Positions 52,037-64,000 of a stretch of DNA of 64,000 nucleotides are shown here, piece by piece. The stretch is from NCBI GenBank assembly GCA_900315155.1, contig OMYB01000002.1, positions 248,001 to 312,000 on the forward strand, read 5' to 3'. The first letter of the stretch is position 1, and each line of letters opens with the position of its first letter. This DNA comes from an uncultured Selenomonadales bacterium (GTDB lineage: Bacteria; Bacillota; Negativicutes; Selenomonadales; Selenomonadaceae). The position numbers and the translations under genes are program-made. The notes beneath the pieces were generated by a model, which saw only the letters and a list, made by a program, of their open reading frames with translations, was not told the origin of the DNA and made no database searches.

Positions 52037-52702
52037 TTATTTCCGGCGATAGATGATGTCGTTGCGGAACATGTACTCGAACGGGAGGCTCAGGCAGTGG
52101 ACGAGGCGCGTAAACGGGAAGACAATCGCGACGAGCATCCAGCTGAGCATGTGCACGCGGAAGATCGTCGGGATGTTTTCCATGAGGCTCACGTCCGGCT
52201 GCAGCATGAGCACGGAGCGGAACCACGGGGAGATGGCCTCGCGGTAGTCGAACGCGCCAGAGATGTTGCTGAGCGTGCCCGCGCAGCCCGTGATAATCGC
52301 GAGTGCGAGGAACAGGTAGAGCACGCGGTCCATGTTGCTCGTGTTGGCCTTCATGCGCGGCGAGCCGGCGAAACGGCGTTTCATGAGCAGCAGGAAGCCG
52401 CCAAGGAACAGGATGCCCGCGGGGATACCGCCCGCCAGGGCAATCATGTGGTAGGTGGCTTCATCGGTGCCGGCCATCTTCGTGACGAATTTCGGCACGA
52501 GGACGCCGATGATATGGCCGCCCAGCGCCATGACCAGGCCGAGATGGAACATCGGGCCTGCCCATTTCAGGCTTTTCTTATCGAGGAACTCGCTGGACTT
52601 CGTCGTCCATGTGCGCTCCCCGCGCGTATAGCGCATGACCGTACCGACGACGAGGATCGTCAGCGCGATGTATGGCAGGACGCCATAGAGAAAGGTATTC
52701 AT
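52037..52702 (-). CDS. narI: Respiratory nitrate reductase gamma subunit (cytochrome b)
   Basis: A 221-residue membrane subunit with about five hydrophobic helices that oxidises quinol. His residues expected to bind two hemes occur in MFHLGLVMALGGHIIG, ATYHMIALAGG, FRVHMLSWM and RLVHCLSLPF. Start overlaps the narJ stop by four bases (ATGA). Without an intact NarG it has no catalytic partner in this strain. Confidence 0.93.
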   Translation of the reverse strand: MNTFLYGVLPYIALTILVVGTVMRYTRGERTWTTKSSEFLDKKSLKWAGPMFHLGLVMALGGHIIGVLVPKFVTKMAGTDEATYHMIALAGGIPAGILFLGGFLLLMKRRFAGSPRMKANTSNMDRVLYLFLALAIITGCAGTLSNISGAFDYREAISPWFRSVLMLQPDVSLMENIPTIFRVHMLSWMLVAIVFPFTRLVHCLSLPFEYMFRNDIIYRRK

Positions 52703-53247
52703 ACGTGTTCCGCCTCCAATCCTTCTGTAGTCATGAGCGCGACATCGATGAGGAGCGTCTGCGGCAGCTTCGCCTCGACGAGGCGGCTGCGCAGGAGTTT
52801 CAGCTTATCCGATGCCTTCTCAAGGACGGATTTCGCATGATCCGCAGGGATTGCCGCCGCGAGCTCGAGCAGGGCGGGCAGATAGTCTGGCAGATCCTTA
52901 TTCACATCGAAGCCATTCTCGAGGAACAGTTCTTTGTACGCGTGCATTTCCTGCGACTGCTTGCCGAAATCCGTGCGGTCGTGGTTCGTGAGGTACAGAT
53001 TCGTGTTCTGTGAGAAATCGAAGCTGCGCACGTACTGTGCCTCAAACTCCTCCGGGCTGGTCTCATCGACATAGTCGCAGAACTGCGTCAGGAGGTCGCG
53101 TGCCTGCGGCATCTCCACCTCGCGGACGACAGTACGCCATTCCGGGAATTCCTCCCACCAGTCGGCATCCGGATAGGAAAGCAGGAATGCGGTGCTCGCG
53201 AGAGCCTTCGTATAGTCTGCCGGCTGTTTTGCGTTTTCCTCACTCAT
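52699..53247 (-). CDS. narJ: Nitrate reductase assembly chaperone
   Basis: A 182-residue TorD/NarJ-family chaperone, all-helical, that inserts the molybdenum cofactor into NarG. Conserved segments AFLLSYPDADWWEEFPEWR and YVRSFDFSQNTNLYLTNHDR fit NarJ. The ATG at 53247 overlaps the narH stop by four bases. Confidence 0.9.
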   Translation of the reverse strand: MSEENAKQPADYTKALASTAFLLSYPDADWWEEFPEWRTVVREVEMPQARDLLTQFCDYVDETSPEEFEAQYVRSFDFSQNTNLYLTNHDRTDFGKQSQEMHAYKELFLENGFDVNKDLPDYLPALLELAAAIPADHAKSVLEKASDKLKLLRSRLVEAKLPQTLLIDVALMTTEGLEAEHV

Positions 53248-54668
53248 TCGTTGCACCCCCCTGGGCAGGTATAGCAGCCGCCACCCTGCAGTTCCCGCAT
53301 CTTTGCTTTGGACGCACCCTGCATGCCAGCCGGGATGTTGAAGCGTTCCTTGTACTTCGCGATGGCGAGGAGACGATACATCTTTTCATACGTCTCCGTC
53401 GGGTATTCGAGGCGGGTCGGCAGATCCATCCCCGTTTCCTTGGCACGCATGACGAGACGCATGTCGAGCAGGCGCTGGAGCACGTTCGTCACGATGCCCT
53501 GGTTGCCTGCACCGAAGAGCTCGGCGAGATAGGCGAGCGGAATGCGCATCTCCTCGACATCCGGCAGGTAGACATCGGCCTCGACGCGGCGCGCGATCGG
53601 CGAAAGGGGCGGTACATACCAGACCATCGGGAGCGTGCGGTACTCGGCGTGCAGCGGCAGCGCGAGGCGCCACTCCTTGATGAGCTTGTAGACGGGCGAG
53701 TTCTGTGCGGCCTGCAGCCAGGTTTCCGGCACACCTTCTTTGCGAGCGGCCTCGATGACCTCCGGGTCGCTCGGATCCTGGATGACATCGAGCATGTTGT
53801 GGGCGATGTTGCCCGGCTCCAGCGTCGAGGCTACGGCCTCGACCTTATCCATATCGTAGAGCAGCACGCCCATGTAGCGCAGGCGGCCGACACAGGTATC
53901 CGCGCAGACCGTTGGCAGGCCGTTCTCGAGGCGCGGGAAGCAGAAAATGCACTTCTCGGCCTTGTTCGTCTTCCAATTGAAATAGACTTTCTTGTACGGA
54001 CAGGACGGGACGCAGTGACGCCAGCCACGGCAGGCATCCTGCGAGACGAGCACGACGCCGTCCTCCTCGCGCTTGTAGATGGCACCGGACGGGCAGGCTG
54101 CGACGCAGGCCGGATTCAGGCAGTGGTTGCAGACGCGCGGCAGGTATTTCATGAAGAGATCGTGGAACTCCATCTTGATCTCTTCGCCCATCTTCTCGAG
54201 GTTGACGTCCTGACGGGCTGTCTCGCCGTTCGCGAGGTCATCCTCCCAGTTCGGCCCCCACTTGATTTCCATGCGCTCCTCGGTGATGAGCGAACGCGGA
54301 CGGGCCACGGGCTGGTGGTTCTTGCGGCGCGAATCGATGAGCGTACTGTAGTCGTACGTCCACGGCTCATAGTAATCGTCGATCTCCGGCTGCTGCGGAT
54401 GGTAGAACAGCTCGGCGAGGCGCAGCGGCTTCGGGCCCGTGCGGAGCTCGAGCTTGCCGTTTTTCAGCGTCCAGCCGCCCTTCCACTTGTCCTGGTCTTC
54501 CCAGCGTTTCGGATAGCCGATGCCCGGCTTCGTCTCCACGTTGTTGAAATACATATATTCCGCACCGGGGCGGTTGGTCCAGACGTTCTTGCAGGTGATG
54601 GAGCACGTATGGCAGCCGATGCACTTGTCAAGATTCATGACCATCGAAATTTGTGCTTTAATCTTCAA
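53244..54668 (-). CDS. narH: Respiratory nitrate reductase beta subunit
   Basis: A 474-residue iron-sulfur subunit that carries electrons from NarI to NarG. Four Cys clusters are visible: CIGCHTCSITCKNVW, CNHCLNPACVAACPSGAIY, CRGWRHCVPSCPYKK and CIFCFPRLENGLPTVCADTC; the Trp in CRGWRHC marks the [3Fe-4S] cluster as in E. coli NarH. The reading frame is complete and begins 11 bases inside the narG end. Confidence 0.96.
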   Translation of the reverse strand: MKIKAQISMVMNLDKCIGCHTCSITCKNVWTNRPGAEYMYFNNVETKPGIGYPKRWEDQDKWKGGWTLKNGKLELRTGPKPLRLAELFYHPQQPEIDDYYEPWTYDYSTLIDSRRKNHQPVARPRSLITEERMEIKWGPNWEDDLANGETARQDVNLEKMGEEIKMEFHDLFMKYLPRVCNHCLNPACVAACPSGAIYKREEDGVVLVSQDACRGWRHCVPSCPYKKVYFNWKTNKAEKCIFCFPRLENGLPTVCADTCVGRLRYMGVLLYDMDKVEAVASTLEPGNIAHNMLDVIQDPSDPEVIEAARKEGVPETWLQAAQNSPVYKLIKEWRLALPLHAEYRTLPMVWYVPPLSPIARRVEADVYLPDVEEMRIPLAYLAELFGAGNQGIVTNVLQRLLDMRLVMRAKETGMDLPTRLEYPTETYEKMYRLLAIAKYKERFNIPAGMQGASKAKMRELQGGGCYTCPGGCNE

Positions 54669-56970
54669 GCCAATCTACCTCCTCCAGCTTGCGGCAGACC
54701 ACGTACATATCGCGCTGGTTGCCGGTCGGACCGTAGTAATTGAACCCGTAGCTCAGCTGGCCATAGCCGCCGATCATGTGGGTCGGTTTCATGTGGATGC
54801 GCGTCGGCGTGTTGTGCGAGCCGCTGCGCGTATGCGTGATGGAGTTGCCCGGCACGTTGATGTGGCGGTCCTGCGCATGGTGCATGTATACGACACCCTG
54901 CGGTAGGCGCGGCGTCACGGCCACGCGGGACGACACGACACCGTTGTGGTTGTAGAGCTCGATCCAGTCGTTGTCCTTCACGCCGATCTCTGCGGCATCC
55001 TTTTCGTTGATCCAGACAGTCTGGCCTCCACGGAACAGCGTGAGCATCTGCTGGCTGTCGAAATACATGGAGTGCGTGCTCCACTTGTTGTGCGGCGTGA
55101 GGTATTTCAGCGTGATCTCCTTCGCGCCACCGAGGCGGTGCTCGATGGGCTTGTAGTCGAGGATGGGCTTATACGTCGCCATGGCCTCGCCGTACTCACG
55201 CATCATCTCATGGTCGAGATAGAAGGACTGCCGGCCCGTGACCGTGCGGAATGGGACGAGCTCCTCGATATTCGTCGTAAATGGCGTATACCGGCGGTTC
55301 TGGTTGCTGCCCGTGAACGTCGGGGACGTGATCGTCTCCTTGGGCTGGGCTGCGATCTCATCGAACGTGAAACGCTCACTTTCGCGGTCAGCGGCGAGGC
55401 GGGCGAGGTTATCGACACCAGACTTCTTTTCCAGGGCATGCCATGCCTTGACGGCGACCTTGCCGTTCGTCGTCGTGGAAAGTCCCATGACGGCCTCGGC
55501 AGCCTGACGCGCCGTATATATGGACGGGCAGCCATAGGAGACGTAGTCCTTATTCTCGATGACACCGTTGCGGCGCTTGATTTCCTCGTACTCGTCACTG
55601 CTGTCCCAAGTGAAGTTGAGCGAGCCCATCTTCTTCGAGACGTTTGGTCCGAGCGCGATCCACTTTTCGTACGTCTTCGTGTAGTCGCGTACGACCGGCA
55701 CGAGACCCGGCATCGTCTTGCCCGGGACCGGCTCACACTCGCCTTTGCTCCAATCGAGGATGCAGCCCTCCGGCTGGGCGAGCTCGCCCTCGCTGTCGTG
55801 CTGCACCGGCATGGCGACAACATCGTGATACGGCTTCAGATCCGCTTCCTTCGCGACGTCCGAGACGGCTTTCGCGAGCGTGCGGTAGATATCCCAGTCG
55901 GATTTTGCCTCCCAGAGCGGGGCAACGGCCTCCTGGAACGGATGCACGAACGGGTGCATATCCGTCGAGGAGAGGTCGTCCTTCTCATACCACGTCGCCG
56001 TCGGCAGGACAACATCGGAGTACAGCGCCGTGCCGGCCATGCGGAAGTCGATGTCGATGAGCAGGTCGAGCTTGCCCTCAGCGGCACCGCCCGGTTTCTC
56101 GAGCTCCGCTTTGCCGCGCCATTTGATCTCCGTTGGACGCGCGGCAGCCTCCTCCTCGGCAAACAGCGTATTCTCCGTGCCGAGCAGGTACTTCATGAAA
56201 TAATCGTTGCCCTTCGCAGACGAGCCGAGCAGGTTCGCCGTCCAGACAAAGAGGTTGCGCGGGAAATTCTCCGGTGCATCCGGATCCTGCACGGAAAACT
56301 CGAGGCTGCGGTCCTTCAGGGAATCGACGATGTACTTCTTGACATCCTTGCCCGCCTTTTCCGCCTCATCGTGCAGCTGCTGGCCGCCCTTGTTGAACGT
56401 CGGATAGGACGGCAGCCAGCCCATGCGGGCCGCGAGCACGTTGTAGTCACCGGCGTTGCGGTAGCGTGGCTTCTCCAGCGGCGAAGTGAGGTCGCCGAGA
56501 TCGACTTCATCGCTGCGCCACTGATCCGTAGCGAAATAATAGAAGCTCGTGCTGTTCTGCAGGCGGGGCGGTTTCTGCCAGTCCAGCGCCGTCATGATGC
56601 GCTGCCAGCCCTCTGCCGGGCGGAGCTTCTCCTGGCCGACATAGTGTGCCCAGCCGCCGCCGTTGCGGCCCTCGCTGCCCGTGAACAGCAGCAGGTTGAG
56701 GATCGTGCGGTAGACGACGTCGGCGTGGAACCAGTGATTGATACCGCCGCCCATGATGACCATCGTCTTGCCCTTGGTCTGGATCGCATTGTCTGCGAAC
56801 TCGCGGGCCGTATGGATGCAGGTCTCCGCAGGTACGCCCGTGTATTTTTCCTGCCATTTCGGCGTGTACGGCACATCTTCATCGTACGAGGAGGCGCACT
56901 CGCCGCCGATGCCGCGGTCGATCGCGTAGTTCGCGAGCGTCAGGTCGTAGACCGTCGTGACGAGGACTTC
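54658..56970 (-). pseudogene. narG: narG truncated at its 5' end by an integrated element
   Basis: About 768 codons encode the C-terminal part of the nitrate reductase alpha subunit, from LVTTVYDLTLANYAIDRGIG to the true C-terminus GGYGQLSYGFNYYG ... WLED. Full NarG proteins have about 1220-1250 residues, so roughly 480 N-terminal residues are missing, including the [4Fe-4S] (FS0) and the molybdenum-ligand regions. The open frame runs on past 56970, but there it reads through the 3' end of a tRNA gene and element sequence with no NarG similarity. Remaining codons show no further stop or frameshift, so the break is recent or reversible. Downstream narH, narJ and narI are intact but have lost their promoter unless the element supplies one. 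Confidence 0.9.
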
Positions 56971-57011
56971 TAAGCCGTGGGTCGAGGGTTCGAATCCCCC
57001 CTGACGCACCA
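56964..57011 (+). other. Attachment site: 3' half of tRNA-Arg(TCT) at the element-narG junction
   Basis: The plus strand reads from the anticodon loop (CTTCTAA, anticodon TCT) through GTTCGAATC to CTGACGC-A-CCA, that is a complete tRNA 3' half. The sequence to the left is narG, not a tRNA 5' half: the anticodon stem would fail to pair. GGACTTC at 56964-56970 can also be read as narG codons (GAA-GTC-C) and is the likely crossover core shared by attP and the target. Confidence 0.85.
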
Positions 57012-57023
57012 GGAATATCAAGG

Positions 57024-57051
57024 CCTCCGAGGTTTTCTCGGAGGTCTTTTT
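57024..57051 (+). terminator. Terminator after the tRNA-Arg fragment
   Basis: CCTCCGAG pairs with CTCGGAGG over a 5-base loop, followed by TCTTTTT. Elements that target tRNA 3' ends often carry such a replacement terminator. Confidence 0.85.
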
Positions 57052-57058
57052 CACGCTT

Positions 57059-57079
57059 GTGGGGCAATAAGTGGGGCAA
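57059..57079 (+). repeat. Direct repeats next to the attachment site
   Basis: GTGGGGCAA occurs at 57059-57067 and 57071-57079, a 12-base period. Position and form suit integrase arm-type binding sites. Confidence 0.65.
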
Positions 57080-57156
57080 CGCAAAAAAATTCTGCTTTCA
57101 TAGGGCTGCTGAAAAAATTTTGCAAGAAAAAATAGGATGGAGAGAAGCTGGACTTG

Positions 57157-57426
57157 ATGGACAGAGAGACAAAAATTTCGGATAATCTGCTGATCCTGCC
57201 AGGAGAAACGATCGCAGATGTTTTGAAAGATCGAAAGATGACAGAAAAAGATCTTGCCGCACAAACAGGCTGCTCGGAAGATGTCATCCATCGTGTCATC
57301 TGTGGAGAACTGCCGATTGCGGAAGATTTCGCGAATCGAATGGAATCGGTGCTGGATGTGCCAGCTACCTTTTGGCTTCGCTTGCAAGCAAACTATGATG
57401 AGGAACGTCTTCGTGATAAAAAATAG
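57157..57426 (+). CDS. HigA-like XRE-family DNA-binding protein
   Basis: An 89-residue protein with an XRE helix-turn-helix in the HigA antitoxin layout: LPGETIADVLKDRKMTEKDL, CSEDVIHRVICGELPI, and the family's C-terminal FWLRLQANYDEERLR. HigA proteins normally neutralise and co-regulate a HigB toxin encoded just upstream, but none is found within 150 bases on either side. It could be an orphan antitoxin, an anti-addiction gene or an element regulator. The start is ambiguous: ATG 57157, or TTG 57154; neither has an ideally spaced ribosome site. Confidence 0.78.
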   Translation: MDRETKISDNLLILPGETIADVLKDRKMTEKDLAAQTGCSEDVIHRVICGELPIAEDFANRMESVLDVPATFWLRLQANYDEERLRDKK

Positions 57427-57500
57427 GCCTCCCAAGGCGGGAGACCTGACTTTAGAGGATGGAGATGCTCAGGCATTTTCTTGGTCCGGCCAGTACGCTG

Positions 57501-58712
57501 TTACGATATCGAAGACGCCATAGCAGCGTACCCTTCTCGGAAAATCTTATTGAGAGCATCAATCGCAGGACGCTGCATATCGGGCAAGACATGACTGTAC
57601 GTGTCCATCGTCACCTTGATGGAGCTATGGCCGAGACGTTCCTGCACGACCTTGGGGTTGACGCCTTGTTGCAGGAGCAGGGTTGCATGCGTATGACGCA
57701 GCCCATGGAAGGTGAATCCCTCACGGATGTTGCATTTCTTCAACAAGGGCTGAAAATATCGGCGGGTGAAGTTCGTTGGACTGAGAGGTTCGCCGAACGG
57801 ACTGGTGAAGATGAGATTGTGCCAATGGAACATATTGCCGAGGCTTTCGGCGTATTCTTTCTGCCATACTTGGTAGGAACGCAGTTGTTCTACGTCCTTG
57901 GGCATCAGTGCAACGTTGCGGCGGCTTTTCATCGTCTTCGGCGCTTGGAAGACCGCACCCTTGCCGACCACATGGGCGAGAGAACGGCGGACGTGCAGGG
58001 CAGCTTGATCGAGGTCGATGTCTTCCCACTTGAGGCCGAAAACCTCTCCCTGCCGCAGCCCTGTGTGTGCCGTCAGGGCAATCAGCTCCGACATCATCCG
58101 CCCCATGTAGGGATGGTCGATTTCGAGAGCGGCGTCGATGAGCCGGTCAACCTCGGTGTTCGTCAGTACGACGATTTCTTTTTTCACCAGTTTTGGCGGG
58201 CGTGTCCTCTTGACTGGATTGCTCTCTAGCTTGCCAGCTCGTACGGCTTCGTCCAAGCACATCGAGAAATAGCGACGGGCGGCTCTGACCGTTGAGGATG
58301 AGATGCCTGTCCCTTTGAGCCCGCCATGCGAGAGAAGCCTGTTGAAGTGGCGTTGCAGGGCAGTAGCATCAAGCTCGTTGAGTGCTGTTTTCCCGAAAGC
58401 CGGAAGGACATAGTTCTTGAGGCTGCTGACGTACTTCTCGTAGGTGCGCGCACGGATGCGCGGCTTCACCATCGTTGTCATGCACTCGTGCAGCCAGTCT
58501 GCGACCGTAAGGACTTCTTGGACAGGTTCTTTTGATTTCTCGAGTTGTTCTTTGAAGGTTTCCCACTTGTCGCGAGCGATGCGGCGTGTCTTGCCAGTGA
58601 ATTTTTGACGGCGGCGGTGGTTTTCTGCATCGTAATACATGATTTGGAAAATCCACAGGTTGCGCTTGTCGTCATGATAGAAGGTTCCTTCTCCAGAACT
58701 GCGTTTGCTCAT
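57501..58712 (-). CDS. int: Tyrosine recombinase (integrase) of the integrated element
   Basis: A 403-residue phage/ICE-type integrase. An AP2-like arm-binding region (residues ~1-55) and core-binding SAM-like domain (~65-165) precede the catalytic domain. Catalytic residues are Arg220 (HTGLRQGE), His336-x-x-Arg339 (FHGLRHTH), His362 (LGHSS) and Tyr372 (DTYSHV). It catalyses insertion and excision at the tRNA-derived site 490 bases away; its 3' end faces the attachment site, as usual. Good evidence that the element could still excise. Confidence 0.95.
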   Translation of the reverse strand: MSKRSSGEGTFYHDDKRNLWIFQIMYYDAENHRRRQKFTGKTRRIARDKWETFKEQLEKSKEPVQEVLTVADWLHECMTTMVKPRIRARTYEKYVSSLKNYVLPAFGKTALNELDATALQRHFNRLLSHGGLKGTGISSSTVRAARRYFSMCLDEAVRAGKLESNPVKRTRPPKLVKKEIVVLTNTEVDRLIDAALEIDHPYMGRMMSELIALTAHTGLRQGEVFGLKWEDIDLDQAALHVRRSLAHVVGKGAVFQAPKTMKSRRNVALMPKDVEQLRSYQVWQKEYAESLGNMFHWHNLIFTSPFGEPLSPTNFTRRYFQPLLKKCNIREGFTFHGLRHTHATLLLQQGVNPKVVQERLGHSSIKVTMDTYSHVLPDMQRPAIDALNKIFREGYAAMASSIS

Positions 58713-58730
58713 AATGTTGTTCTCCCTTCA

Positions 58731-58778
58731 ATAAAATCGCGGCTGAAGACAGCACCTTCGGCACTGTCTTCAGCCGCG
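58731..58778 (-). terminator. Long hairpin between excisionase and integrase genes
   Basis: A perfect 15-bp stem (58738-58752 with 58764-58778) extended by a further weak pairing round TTCG, followed by ATTTTAT on the minus strand. It would limit read-through from the element's early genes into int. Confidence 0.85.
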
Positions 58779-58791
58779 CTGCGCCTCGATC

Positions 58792-58956
58792 TCAGGCGGC
58801 AATCAGTTTTTGCAGCGATTCCTCGGGGACAAGGATGCGCGTGCCGATGCGGATGACATCGAGCTTCTTCTTGTAGACCATATCATACAGCAAGGATTTG
58901 CTGACGCCGAGCATGGTCGCGATTTCCTTGATGGCGTAATACTTTTTTTCCTCCAT
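58792..58956 (-). CDS. xis: Excisionase / helix-turn-helix type 17 protein
   Basis: A 54-residue MerR-like winged helix-turn-helix protein: YYAIKEIATMLGVSKSLLYD followed by KKKLDVIRIGTRILVPEESL. Such small proteins act as excisionases, bending DNA at the attachment site to favour excision. The ATG at 58956 follows GGAGGTG. Adjacent to int in the usual order. Confidence 0.88.
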   Translation of the reverse strand: MEEKKYYAIKEIATMLGVSKSLLYDMVYKKKLDVIRIGTRILVPEESLQKLIAA

Positions 58957-59005
58957 CTGGATGCACCTCCATTGGTATAGTACATTTGCTGAGGCGAGAA
59001 CTTTA

Positions 59006-59362
59006 TCACATGAGGAGGGGCGGAAACTTCTTGTTGCCCTCACGTTCTGCATAGCGCGGATCGATGAATGTCGTGTTTTCGGCCATATTCACGGGGAGCA
59101 CGGGTGACGTGTCGTTACCATTCCGCAAGATGTAACGGAAAGTGTAACGAGCGTAGGCCCATGCTTTTGCCCATTCGATGGTCGGGAATTGGTAGATTTC
59201 AATCCAGAGAAGACGCTGTGCTGCATCGCTGAGGAGGGATGCTTTGTTGTAGATGCCGATTCCGTTTCTGCCGACAGCAGCATACCATGGAAGGTTCATG
59301 CCGTTGTAGTTGTAGTCGTTGTTGGTGTTGGTGTTGTTGAGGGTCATGAGATTTTGCATCAT
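59006..59362 (-). CDS. Small element protein with RNase H1 N-domain-like fold
   Basis: A 118-residue protein. Residues 25-75 (PWYAAVGRNGIGIYNKASLL, then YQFPTIEWAKAWAYARYTFR) resemble the N-terminal RNA/DNA-hybrid-binding domain of RNase H1 (viroplasmin-like: WYAVxxGRxxGIY ... F.t...A..). The catalytic RNase H domain is absent. The first 20 residues are Asn/Thr-rich. It ends 12 bases before the helicase-like gene's stop region in transcription order (helicase first, then this gene). A nucleic-acid-binding helper of element replication is plausible. Ribosome site AAAGGAGA. Confidence 0.68.
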   Translation of the reverse strand: MMQNLMTLNNTNTNNDYNYNGMNLPWYAAVGRNGIGIYNKASLLSDAAQRLLWIEIYQFPTIEWAKAWAYARYTFRYILRNGNDTSPVLPVNMAENTTFIDPRYAEREGNKKFPPLLM

Positions 59363-59373
59363 CGTAGTCTCCT

Positions 59374-61485
59374 TTATTTTTGGTTGATAATGGATTCGCA
59401 GGCGGCGATTTTCAAGACGACCATTCGAGGTCTGCCAGGGATTTTGGAGGACGCTTTCATCAGGGTAGAGCCCTGATTGCAGAGAGTCAAATCGTGCTCC
59501 TTGAGCTGACGGAGAATTTCTTTTGGCGACAAGGGAAGGTTTTCTCCCCGATCAATGCAGGCGTTTCGGATGCACTTGAACAGCTCATCAGATTTTAACC
59601 AGTAGACCCCTTTTTCACGTTCCTCATAGCCAAGGTAACTCCCGAGATTCCCGACGTATATCTCAAGGTTTCTTGCGATTGCAACCTTGCCCGTCCCAAT
59701 CAGATTCCAGAACTCTTTGATATAGCGGACGTAGGGATCTTCCTTCTGTGCCTCGGCGCATTGATGATGAACGAGTTCCGCGAATTGCTGTGCGGCAAGT
59801 ATCGTCCATTTCGACTGGTCTTCTGACCGGATGACGCCCGCTTGGGAGAGGAATCCCATGAGCGTTTCCCATGCGAGGACCAAGTGAGCGTAATCATCAC
59901 GGAGGCGAGGTTCTTTAACAGATGCGAGCAGTCCTCGTTTCGACGGGAAGCTGTCTTTGAAGTACTGAACTAGGTTACGATAGTTTCGTTCGAGGTAGTA
60001 GATATACTCAGACCAGAAATGCTTCATGATCTCGGGGGTATCCTGAAAGACCTGAAGGCGATCGCCTTTTAGCCGTTCGGTAAAGATGACGCGGAGATAA
60101 CGTAGCTCGCTGGACTTGATTTGGCCGGTCACTTCCGTCTCACCCGTAATCACGAGACCGCCCCGGATAGCATAGCTCGTGACCTGATGATTGCCGGCGT
60201 ATTTTTCGCGTGGCGTTTTATCGGAATAGGCGCGGATGAGCGCTTGGAAGTTCTTGGTCTTTTCCTTCACTTCTTGTTGGCTGCCCTCTAAGTTGAAGTC
60301 GTCAACGACCAAAACGTCATCAAAAGCTTCTTGGTGCAGGACTGTCATTGCAGCGGCCGTGCCACGAATCGAATGAATCTGTTTTTTCCGTTCTTCAAAT
60401 ACGTTGTAGAGGACACGGCAGAAGGCTGTCTTCATGAAGCCTGTTTCACCCATCGCCATCAAGGCGAAGTCGAGCGGATAATCAGCATCGCCGAAAATCG
60501 CGTCGAGGTAGGCGCAAGCACCATAGGTGAGCATGGGGATCGTGATGGATGCGTCTCCAACATCCAGTACGGACCATGCTTTGGACAGCCAGACGGTTTT
60601 TCCTTCTGGCGGCAGTTGTTCGAGAAGCGTCTTCTTGCAGGAGCAATCGGGCAATCCTCCGTGATAGAAGAGCCGGTTTTTGCTGGAATCTTCGATTCCC
60701 CATCCCCAATCGGCAGACCCGATGAGAATTGGGAAGTTGCTCGTTTCAAGAAGGAGACCTGTTAGGCGTTTGAACAATTCACTTGCCTTGAACGTGGCGT
60801 CTTTGCAGATACTCCATGCCGGATAGAGCTTCTTGATCTTGTCTTCGAGCGAATCCCACTTCTCCATCGGAATTTCGAGCGTGGCTTGTTTTGCGCCGAC
60901 GCCGAAGATGCGGATGCGATAAATCGTGGATGTCGAACCTTCGTGGAGATGGAGTTGGTGGATTTCGGCGAGGATTTCAAGACGGAACGTCGTGAAACGG
61001 ATGAGCTTCTTGCTCTGGGTATAGTGGTAGTACCCGTTACATCCTTCGAGGTAGCCTTCGCCGATTGGTCGAAACCATTGCGGTGTGGTGTACGTCTGGT
61101 AAGGATATGGATTTGATTCGACGGGGAACATCATCCCGTATGCTGCGGTTGCGCGAAGCAAGGGCGCGAACTGGCACATGGGCTTCATTTCCACGTCCTC
61201 TGGATGGACTACCTTGCAGCGCTCTACGTCGCTTGCCGGTTCGTTCTCGTCGGCGGTGAGAGCGACCGTGTGTTTGTTCATTTCCTCGCTGTAACACACG
61301 GTTGGAACTTCTGTGAGCTGCATTTCCTTCGGGACGTTCTTGCAACGTCTTGGATCGAACTTGACGACAGCTACCTTTTTCTGGGGCTCTTGTTGATGGG
61401 ACTTGCGGGGGATTGGGTCGAACCGGACAACGGTCACCTTTCTCTCCTTGTTGGATGACGTGTTTTGATTCTGCTGCGTATCCAA
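59374..61485 (-). CDS. P-loop primase/helicase-like protein of the element (DUF927-like)
   Basis: A 703-residue protein. A P-loop lies near residue 350 (AMGETGFMKTAFCRVL, Lys-Thr retained) and a Walker B-like VLVVDDFN near 390. The overall layout, a divergent N-domain, an NTPase with GETG-x-x-KT and a winged-helix-like C-terminus, recalls DUF927/phage primase-helicase proteins of integrative elements; the assignment is by pattern. The first 40 residues contain two copies of a VxVVxFDP motif (VTVVRFDP, VAVVKFDP). The start is a TTG at 61485 with AGGAGG seven bases upstream; the open frame continues 76 codons further without a ribosome site. Confidence 0.75.
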   Translation of the reverse strand: MDTQQNQNTSSNKERKVTVVRFDPIPRKSHQQEPQKKVAVVKFDPRRCKNVPKEMQLTEVPTVCYSEEMNKHTVALTADENEPASDVERCKVVHPEDVEMKPMCQFAPLLRATAAYGMMFPVESNPYPYQTYTTPQWFRPIGEGYLEGCNGYYHYTQSKKLIRFTTFRLEILAEIHQLHLHEGSTSTIYRIRIFGVGAKQATLEIPMEKWDSLEDKIKKLYPAWSICKDATFKASELFKRLTGLLLETSNFPILIGSADWGWGIEDSSKNRLFYHGGLPDCSCKKTLLEQLPPEGKTVWLSKAWSVLDVGDASITIPMLTYGACAYLDAIFGDADYPLDFALMAMGETGFMKTAFCRVLYNVFEERKKQIHSIRGTAAAMTVLHQEAFDDVLVVDDFNLEGSQQEVKEKTKNFQALIRAYSDKTPREKYAGNHQVTSYAIRGGLVITGETEVTGQIKSSELRYLRVIFTERLKGDRLQVFQDTPEIMKHFWSEYIYYLERNYRNLVQYFKDSFPSKRGLLASVKEPRLRDDYAHLVLAWETLMGFLSQAGVIRSEDQSKWTILAAQQFAELVHHQCAEAQKEDPYVRYIKEFWNLIGTGKVAIARNLEIYVGNLGSYLGYEEREKGVYWLKSDELFKCIRNACIDRGENLPLSPKEILRQLKEHDLTLCNQGSTLMKASSKIPGRPRMVVLKIAACESIINQK

Positions 61486-61941
61486 AAGAATACCTCCTTT
61501 GAGGGAGGACGTTTTGCCCTCCGTGTCGAATAGAAAACTCATGTAGCAAAGCCGTGTAGCTGTTGAGTCGTTCATTTGTGATCCGCGAACACCGCACGAA
61601 CTTGTCGTTGGCAGGTGCGAGGCACGTTGACCAGATTGCTCCCTTGCAATTCGCGGAGATTCATGAACTTTGACGCTTGCTGCTTTGCTCGCTGCTTGTG
61701 CAGCTGATTTCATTATACAAAAGATGCGGAGGGGTGGTTATTCCCCAGTTTTTTGAGAATTTTGAAGAGAGGGACAAACCTTTTCGATGACTGATTTCTG
61801 CTGCTGTTTTGTCGCTTGCAACTCGGTAGAATGTAAAAATGAGACCCCTCCCTTGAAATTTGAGAATTTTGAGAAGAAAAAGGGCATCGTTTTAGGGGTG
61901 ATTATTGCGGCCGGTGAATAGCGGAGTTAGGATGAGGCGAG
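61486..61941. promoter_or_regulatory. Divergent intergenic region of the element
   Basis: 456 bases between divergent genes. TTTGAGAATTTTGA occurs twice, at 61752-61765 and 61859-61872. A GGAGGGC/GTCCTCC hairpin lies just ahead of the helicase ribosome site. No further gene is supported. Probably holds promoters for both sides and perhaps replication or regulatory sites. Confidence 0.55.
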
Positions 61942-63891
61942 ATGGAAAAGAAAACAGGATTTGACGTATCGACCATACGAAGATGCCTGCATGATGTCGT
62001 GAGAAAAATTTTGCTGACGTCATATCCAGAGACGAAGGCTGAGAATAAGCAAAATTGTTCAGATATGCCAATCGGCTATCCGCAGAAATTATATGTTAAG
62101 GGGAATGGCAGTCCTTGCTTGCTAGACTTGCCGAAGGTGTATCTTGTGATGCATTCCGACTGGGAGAAGAATGTTGAGGAGTGCATAAACGACGAGAGCG
62201 ATGACACCGTCCGAGAGAAAATGAAACGCGGCAGGGATAACGTTGTGCCTTATGTTTTGGCGTATTATGAGATGAAAGTTCGATACGAAACGCAATCCTT
62301 TCTAGAGGATACGATCGATACGCTCTATGAGCAATTTATAGAGTTGCGGAACGAATTTCGGGATGTACGAAAGATAGAAGCGGTAAGTGAAAAACAGAAA
62401 ACACTAGTCTGGATGGTAAAGTCATTGATTATGCAGATGGGAATACTACGAGGTAAAGTGTATTCCTTCATTTTGGAAAATTGGCAGTGGATGGAAGGAC
62501 TGCCGATGATCAGGGAGGATTGGTTGATTAGATGCGAATCTGATGAGGAAAAGAAAATCGCCATTTTTGAAAATTTCAAGTCGAGATGGATTCGTGAACT
62601 CAAAAACATCATTGATACGAAACAGTTGCAGGAGATATCCGGGCAGACGGATGCTGATGCCCAGCGGAGCAAGAAAATAAAAGAGATTTTGGAATTACAT
62701 AAGCAAATTTTTTACGGAACGCAGAAAATTTACTTTTCCAATTTGATTAGAGAATATCATGAAGAGGATTGGCTTGAGCTTCCGTATGCTCAGAACGTTT
62801 TATTATCGATGAAGTACGGTGCTAGCTCTTGCTTCAACTTGGAGGCAGTCTTATGTTTTTTGTTTTGTCATCAGGTGACGCTTCCTAAGGTTCTTGGCCA
62901 CCTGATAGAAAGGCAAGAAGCTTTCTTTGATGATATCTATGAGGTGATGGTTCATAAGAGTGGTAGGATACGCGAGCTGTTTGAATATGATGGGATTGAT
63001 TTAGAAGTAGCAGCAGATAATCAAGGATGGGAACTGTTAGCTGGACCGGAGGCAAAAGCGATTAAAACCTATAAACATAGTCTGATAAGTCTCAAGGAGC
63101 TGTTGATACTGCATGAGATTATCGGATCTGAAAATAGGTGTAAATCTGTAAACCTCTTACTCTCATATTATCTAAAGATATTAGGTGAGACGAAGGTACC
63201 GTATTTCTCGTATGATCAACGGCAATGTATCCTCAGCGAATTTTTGCAGAAAACGGGAATGAAGAAAGAGGATTTTGCGAAATTGTTCAACATATCGCCC
63301 GCATCCGTTTATCGGAAATGCAACGATGGAACGTTGTATACGGAGCCGCTGTTTTCCGTCTACTGGATGGCGGTCACAGGATTTACGTACGATTACCTTC
63401 GCGGCGATACGACGCTCAAAAGTTATGGACAAGACCCAACTGGGCAGCGTAAAAATCATTATCTATGGGCAGCGATGCTTCAGAAGGGAGCTTCCGAGGG
63501 CATCCTCAAAGTGGCAAAAGATTTCATAGCATTCAAGTATGATTTAACGAAAAAGGATTCTCCGTATCTTGCCTATCGACATCCGTTATGGTCAAAAATT
63601 GATCAAGAGATAGATGGCCGAATCAATAAAATCGTAGACTTATTGGCACAAAGGAGAAAAGCAGCAGGGCATAGCATTAACAACAAAAACAATGCAATCA
63701 TCTATGGACAGCTTCAGTCGAACCGTGGAGAGAAGGAAAAACAAGAGCCTGTGGGAGACCCGTTGCAAGCCGAACAATATCAATCCTTCTTGACCTGCTT
63801 GGACACGGTCGTAGATTTGTTGGAGAAAGAGACGAAGAAGACGTTCCCTGACGTTGCAAAAAAGGAGCCGTCGGATGAGGCTCCCAAATGA
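61942..63891 (+). CDS. Unknown 649-residue cargo protein
   Basis: A large soluble, mostly helical protein that I do not recognise. Residues ~105-260 are rich in charged helices. A helix-turn-helix-like segment lies near residues 430-460 (FLQKTGMKKEDFAKLFNISP, ASVYRKCNDG). The C-terminus is Lys/Glu-rich and likely disordered. It is on the opposite strand to the element core, is visibly more A/T-rich than the chromosomal genes in this window, and stands at the far side of the divergent promoter, which is where cargo or regulatory genes of such elements sit. No catalytic motif is evident. Candidate roles are element regulator or defence cargo. Ribosome site GAGGCGAG. Confidence 0.75.
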   Translation: MEKKTGFDVSTIRRCLHDVVRKILLTSYPETKAENKQNCSDMPIGYPQKLYVKGNGSPCLLDLPKVYLVMHSDWEKNVEECINDESDDTVREKMKRGRDNVVPYVLAYYEMKVRYETQSFLEDTIDTLYEQFIELRNEFRDVRKIEAVSEKQKTLVWMVKSLIMQMGILRGKVYSFILENWQWMEGLPMIREDWLIRCESDEEKKIAIFENFKSRWIRELKNIIDTKQLQEISGQTDADAQRSKKIKEILELHKQIFYGTQKIYFSNLIREYHEEDWLELPYAQNVLLSMKYGASSCFNLEAVLCFLFCHQVTLPKVLGHLIERQEAFFDDIYEVMVHKSGRIRELFEYDGIDLEVAADNQGWELLAGPEAKAIKTYKHSLISLKELLILHEIIGSENRCKSVNLLLSYYLKILGETKVPYFSYDQRQCILSEFLQKTGMKKEDFAKLFNISPASVYRKCNDGTLYTEPLFSVYWMAVTGFTYDYLRGDTTLKSYGQDPTGQRKNHYLWAAMLQKGASEGILKVAKDFIAFKYDLTKKDSPYLAYRHPLWSKIDQEIDGRINKIVDLLAQRRKAAGHSINNKNNAIIYGQLQSNRGEKEKQEPVGDPLQAEQYQSFLTCLDTVVDLLEKETKKTFPDVAKKEPSDEAPK

Positions 63892-64000
63892 TGGTGTCCC
63901 CGTTGTCCGTCCCGTCCGCGTGATAGAAAATCGTGTGAGCCTAGGAATATCAAGGCTTGATAACAGGCGGACAGGAAGGACAGGAGGACAAAGAGGATAG
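63892..64000. repeat. Repeats at the right window edge
   Basis: AGGAATATCAAGGC at 63943-63956 repeats exactly the 14 bases that follow the tRNA fragment at 57011-57024, and here forms the palindrome TATCAAGGCTTGATA. GGACAGGA-type iterations follow at about 63970-63995, and TGTCCGTCCCGTCCGC at ~63906-63921 is nearly their reverse complement. Confidence 0.6.

Follow-up and report, generated by a model that had tools for sequence, protein, structure and literature searches.

An integrative element related to tRNA-Arg-associated elements splits the narG gene of a Selenomonadaceae genome

Off-target integration by elements that normally enter tRNA genes is already known. ICEBs1 of Bacillus subtilis has its home site in a tRNA gene, where its 17-bp attB consists of a 7-bp spacer between 5-bp inverted repeats, and it also integrates at secondary sites with mismatched spacers, leaving an attL and an attR that differ from each other (PMC3715440). 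The secondary sites of mycobacteriophage Fionnbharth share only CTT with the core (PMC10865867). Here, we describe a locus in a Selenomonadaceae genome where narG consists of two parts on the same contig and strand, with an integrative element between them. The corresponding home site is the anticodon stem-loop of tRNA-Arg, ACGGC-CTTCTAA-GCCGT. We conclude, with high confidence, that a tyrosine-integrase element directed to the anticodon loop of tRNA-Arg(UCU) inserted a single time, and apparently recently, into a secondary site within the host's only narG. A literature search returned no paper on this narG insertion, which is a natural example of off-target integration with both of its ends mapped.

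The split narG gene and the ends of the element

We analyzed a window of 64,000 nt (C17:248001-312000) of genome G000, which comprises 2.49 Mb in 29 contigs and is 99.8% complete. The two parts of narG and the downstream genes of its operon are located as follows.

54658..56970, minus strand: narG 3′ part, codons 458-1227 plus stop (TIGR01580 model positions 465-1235)
C17:321191-322561, beyond the window end, same strand as the 3′ part: narG 5′ part, codons 1-457 (TIGR01580 model positions 2-468)
53244..54668, minus strand: narH, intact (TIGR01660)
52699..53256, minus strand: narJ, intact (TIGR00684)
52037..52702, minus strand: narI, intact (TIGR00351)

The 5′ part is located 16.2 kb further along the contig than the 3′ part, and beyond it a narK-type transporter and nrfHA are encoded. 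A first-pass annotation of the window had stated that the narG codons end exactly where the 3′ half of a tRNA-Arg(TCT) begins, with narH, narJ and narI intact; the two sequences do abut directly, narG extending to 56970 and the tRNA from 56971, and all three genes match their profiles. The N-terminal residues that it described as missing are absent from the window, although about 457 residues are displaced rather than the proposed ~480, and the 5′ part that it suggested seeking at the other end of the element is present there on the same strand. An intact narG elsewhere, which had been named beforehand as one observation that would count against this account, was sought with TIGR01580 across the genome; there is no other match in the 99.8%-complete sequence, and narG is consequently single copy.

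Neither narG part contains an internal stop. Joining the flanks at a 4-bp core, CTTC, produces an uninterrupted frame of 1,227 codons that has the same length at the joint as the narG of relatives, with no extra residues, and whose product is 88.5% identical to a congener's over the 1,116 columns compared. The two parts combined span the full-length TIGR01580 model (2-468 and 465-1235). The features at the ends of the element are listed below.

C17:304971-321190 (window 56971..64000, then past the window end): integrative element, 16,220 bp, GC content 49.6% compared to 58.4% in the flanks
56967..56970: attL core CTTC, spacer CTTCTAA
C17:321187-321190: attR core CTTC, spacer CTTCCTT
56971..57011, plus strand: 3′ part of tRNA-Arg(UCU), brought by the element (TAAGCCGT...CACCA), forming its left end; ARAGORN calls no complete tRNA here
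57024..57051, plus strand: terminator-like hairpin with a T run, following the tRNA half; the tRNA-Arg genes of relatives are followed by one too
57059..57079: paired putative arm-type repeats GTGGGGCAA, 12 bp apart; analogous pairs adjoin the integrases of relatives
C17:321053-321073: identical putative arm-repeat pair near the right end

The narG site (CTTCCTTGCCGTCGGTCG) and the tRNA-Arg site (CTTCTAAGCCGTGGGTCG) are identical at 14 of 18 bases. The direct repeat at the two element ends is accordingly exact over CTTC and matches at 14/18 positions over CTTC...GGTCG; only 4 bp of core are shared exactly, and the spacers of the two sites differ at three of their seven positions. We chose the pattern CTTCNNNGCCGTNGGTCG post hoc; the genome contains it only at the two ends of the element and a reversed control has zero matches, and therefore chance is not a good account of the similarity. 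The cores are flanked by pairs of 9-bp repeats, with 12 bp between the members of a pair, that probably act as arm-type sites, like those of lambda-like integrases.

As deduced from the flanks and from relatives, the empty narG site would read GAGGA-CTTCCTT-GCCGT-CGGTCG and would code for DGKEVLVTT, a peptide that, under the CTTC model, agrees with the aligned narG proteins of relatives. The site has one perfect core arm (GCCGT) followed by GGTCG, and the narG genes of relatives differ over the corresponding stretch. In G024, GGGTAAGC-CTTCTAAGCCGTGGGTCG aligns with the element's own right end, GGGTAAGC-CTTCCTTGCCGTCGGTCG. Together with displaced tRNA halves in relatives that begin CTTCTAAGCC, this alignment sets the core as CTTC and the element's length as 16,220 bp. 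The longer core GGACTTC proposed at first pass does not hold, as only CTTC is shared; GGA belongs to narG alone and the other end reads AAGCCTTC. We also rejected a 6-bp core, TAAGCC, with an element of 16,211 bp, because it adds the residues GLE to narG, which are absent from all relatives, and because it conflicts with the right ends of their elements. An argument that narG matches the overlap while the host tRNA (TAAACC) does not was lost along with it.

According to this account, the integrase would have recombined two spacers, CTTCTAA in its own site (followed by GCCGTGGGTCG) and the look-alike CTTCCTT in narG (followed by GCCGTCGGTCG), with strand exchange taking place within the shared CTTC. 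Such an event would leave a useless tRNA 3′ half beside the narG 3′ part and narG split after codon 457.

Gene content and the home site of related elements

The element carries about 20 genes, of which those within the window are as follows.

57154..57426, plus strand: small Cro/C1-type HTH protein (PF13443)
57501..58712, minus strand: tyrosine integrase, 403 aa (PF00589), with R220, H336, R339, H362 and Y372 conserved
58792..59052, minus strand: HTH_17 excisionase-like protein (phrog_66)
59006..59362, minus strand: 118-aa element protein with a relative in the G020 element
59374..61713, minus strand: 779-aa element protein without a family match; a 37% identical relative lies in the G020 element at tRNA-Arg
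61942..63891, plus strand: 649-aa element protein of no confident family, with a weak relative in the G020 element

The integrase gene adjoins one end of the element and its five listed residues are invariant in the alignment. The remaining genes encode an Erf-like annealing protein, a phage-exonuclease relative, a RadC-like protein, an AAA ATPase, several regulators and proteins of no known family. A Pfam search of the 20 element proteins found no relaxase or conjugation gene, and the element does not qualify as an ICE/IME. As regards a prophage or phage satellite, the Erf-like protein and the exonuclease relative are present and no phage structural gene was recognized among the element's proteins, several of which have no family. 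At the right end, a MazE/AbrB-like antitoxin and a PIN-domain protein (L006 17330-18049) likely form a toxin-antitoxin pair that stabilizes the element. The AAA ATPase (L006 14135-15076) resembles the anti-phage ATPases IetA/IteA and is possible defence cargo, although we rejected its assignment as a defence gene, as it scores 113 bits against a curated cut-off of 510.

In relatives, the gene for such an integrase is found immediately downstream of an intact tRNA-Arg(TCT), which itself follows tRNA-Pro(TGG). The integrases found at tRNA-Arg(TCT) are listed below.

G001 (congener): 84% identical
G215: 57% identical, with one stop
G020: 55% identical
G024: 79% identical over the C-terminal part, at a contig end
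G071 and G217: 69-72% identical, frames broken
G030: integrase remnant

Identity in other genera thus ranges from 55 to 79%, with some genes broken. Displaced tRNA 3′ halves mark the far ends of elements in G001, G020 and G024, and also in G095, whose integrase is distant; in the first three, the displaced half and the integrase are on different contigs, and we infer the pairing of the ends. The G020 element shares neighbor genes with the narG element, namely those for the excisionase-like protein and the 118-aa, 779-aa, 649-aa and 302-aa proteins. Like an element of this group, the narG copy carries the 3′ part of its target tRNA at its attachment site (56971-57011). Its relatives sit in a tRNA gene that is rebuilt upon insertion, whereas the narG copy does not, and it is therefore a secondary-site insertion of a tRNA-targeting element rather than a canonical one. 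The 5′ half was recovered, attL and attR match, and related integrases are found at tRNA-Arg(UCU); these observations support the earlier proposal that narG, which is not a tRNA gene, was entered by the element at a short sequence similar to the anticodon region of the tRNA.

Further cases concern the range of sites. In G109 (L015), a 50% identical integrase adjoins tRNA-Gly(CCC), with loop and stem CTTCCCAAGCCGTGGGTCG, and from this example, integrases of the group seem to switch among tRNA genes whose anticodon regions are alike. In G095 (L128/L135), a second tRNA-Arg(UCU) 3′ half occurs 54 kb beyond the intact gene, which a 30% identical integrase adjoins, a large element at the same anticodon-loop site in another family. 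The integrases of genus g13 (57-61% identical; L143-L149) have no tRNA within the flank searched. An integrase in G131 next to a tRNA half without a 5′ part was considered as a second off-target case and turned out to be the far end of an element.

Recurrence, the host tRNA-Arg gene and other explanations

Across 189 genomes of the family, with the species itself represented by one strain, 68 have a narG match, and in this genome alone an element divides the gene within a single contig. About 60 of the family's narG genes are full-length and none of those is split by an element; the other fragmentary cases are mostly on separate contigs or have a frame break. A narG break in G192 (L161/L162), no more than about 20 codons from the position of the insertion, was set aside, as the contig ends overlap by exactly 55 bases and the break is probably one in the assembly graph. 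The narG of the congener G002 has an in-frame TAG (L070/L046; L070 about 1588-1590), and single stops are also found in G136, G147 and G199; these stops may reflect relaxed selection on narG in some genomes, or may be sequencing errors.

Besides the element's half, a search by anticodon loop and T-loop found one intact copy of tRNA-Arg(UCU) in the host, on C24. Its anticodon stem is TCGGT/ACCGA, whereas most of the family, including two congeners, have ACGGC/GCCGT. Among matched relatives, the host's stem (L008 2308-2384) is common only to G009, G012 and G037. The element's tRNA half has the GCCGT stem, and its acceptor strand, CTGACGC, is complementary to GCGTCAG, the sequence in the tRNA 5′ halves of G071, G215 and G217 (genus g16), and only partly to the host's GCGTCTG. 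Because the half fits the g16 5′ halves and not fully the host's, the element likely originated in another genus. In a rebuilt hybrid of host 5′ and element 3′ halves, positions 6:67 and 27:43 would both be U-U, and the T stem would contain an A-C that may have arisen after integration; ARAGORN still calls this hybrid a tRNA.

For why the host's tRNA site was not used, we offer a tentative account, one that could well be wrong. The rebuilt tRNA would be mispaired and is probably essential, so that only cells with the element elsewhere would have survived, moving the cost of insertion to narG; the altered anticodon stem of the host's tRNA-Arg would then have helped to deflect the element. In favor of deflection, phage mutants unable to provide a working tRNA were obtained solely with insertions at secondary sites, within non-essential genes (PMC10865867). 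Against deflection by the tRNA allele, the spacer of the host's tRNA-Arg, CTTCTAA, is unchanged, and its site is the closer one to the home site, with 4/17 mismatched base pairs compared to 6/17 in narG. We also compared the variant stem with the absence of such integrases (0/7 variant genomes versus about 5/40) and dropped the comparison, as the numbers are too small. With the present case, the idea that tRNA sequence drift diverts integrative elements can be put to the test; if it holds, variation in tRNA stems would protect tRNA sites and make tRNA-specific elements mutagens of core genes.

The insertion could also have merely survived, with no special deflection needed, if narG was already dispensable; this would add to secondary-site insertion rather than replace it, and we consider it possible, though doubtful. 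The TAG in the narG of G002, the lack of any narG found in the congener G003 (82% complete) and a NapA-like enzyme encoded by the host would all fit a dispensable gene, whereas both narG parts are otherwise undamaged and narHJI, the narK-type transporter and nrfHA have been kept.

A second explanation is that the element is a switch regulating gene integrity, excised on cue to rebuild narG, like the skin element for sigK. The frame of narG is precisely restorable, the integrase and excisionase-like genes are intact, and so still are narHJI. However, the element is absent from all other narG-bearing genomes of the family, and a single occurrence among 68 makes a programmed switch unlikely; related elements use tRNA-Arg, and the spacers at the two ends mismatch, a condition that in ICEBs1 yields fewer circles, excision from secondary sites being reduced or absent (PMC3715440). 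We regard this explanation as very improbable. It is just as hard to credit that narG is the regular, primary site of the element's lineage: the perfect core arm GCCGT and GGTCG in narG would suit it, but the element retains a tRNA 3′ half that is useless in narG, the insertion occurs once in 68 narG-bearing genomes, and the base pattern of the site depends on this species' codon choice and is absent from the narG of relatives. Finally, a misassembly joining unrelated sequences at a tRNA-like repeat can be dismissed almost outright, since two junctions have a common core and paired arm repeats at both ends, both narG parts are in the right strand and order on one 337-kb contig, the tRNA-Arg gene is separately intact on C24, and misassembly would not yield reciprocal attL and attR sites.

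Functional consequences and comparison with known systems

The preferred explanation, a secondary-site insertion, would have consequences for nitrate metabolism. The 5′ part of narG could encode 457 NarG residues followed by a tail derived from the element, and the N-terminal third is missing from the 3′ part; on its own, neither part is expected to function. Judging from the gene structure, Nar activity and nitrate respiration have likely been lost. A NapA-like protein of 757 aa is encoded on C7, scoring best against NapA models and below their cut-offs (769/904 and 737/931 bits), and nitrate reduction may therefore not be wholly lost. If it is lost, one misplaced insertion has altered nitrate metabolism in a species where narHJI, a narK-type transporter and nrfHA are retained.

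Excision could in principle restore narG, as the integrase and excisionase-like genes are intact and the joined frame is kept whichever spacer excision would retain. The 7-bp spacers of attL and attR differ (CTTCTAA and CTTCCTT), and excision is consequently predicted to be inefficient. In ICEBs1, mismatched spacers lead to less circle, and excision from secondary sites is 4-15% of normal or below detection (PMC3715440).

At this locus, a tRNA-specific element has landed naturally in a core respiratory gene, and the case is resolved to the base. The tRNA of the likely donor type, the home site occupied in relatives and the host site that was avoided can all be read. Compared to ICEBs1, the narG element has no recognized conjugation genes; the host tRNA site is present here and deleted there, and the event is natural here and was selected in the laboratory there. 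The tRNA mutants of Fionnbharth are similar in that their secondary sites share little beyond the CTT of the core, and when integration leaves the host without a working tRNA, survivors carry the element in non-essential protein genes (PMC10865867). The Fionnbharth system differs in its integrase, in its tRNA-Lys target and in that the phage carries a complete tRNA, whereas the narG element brings only a 3′ half. The primary site of SGI1 is trmE/thdF, not a tRNA gene, and elements of regulated gene integrity include the sigK skin element and SpyCI. SGI1 is a comparable case of a mobilizable island reported outside its primary site (PMC2297512). Regulated-gene-integrity elements likewise interrupt a protein gene whose frame is restorable by excision (PMC10111431); they are recurrent or conserved at their site, whereas the narG insertion is a single occurrence.
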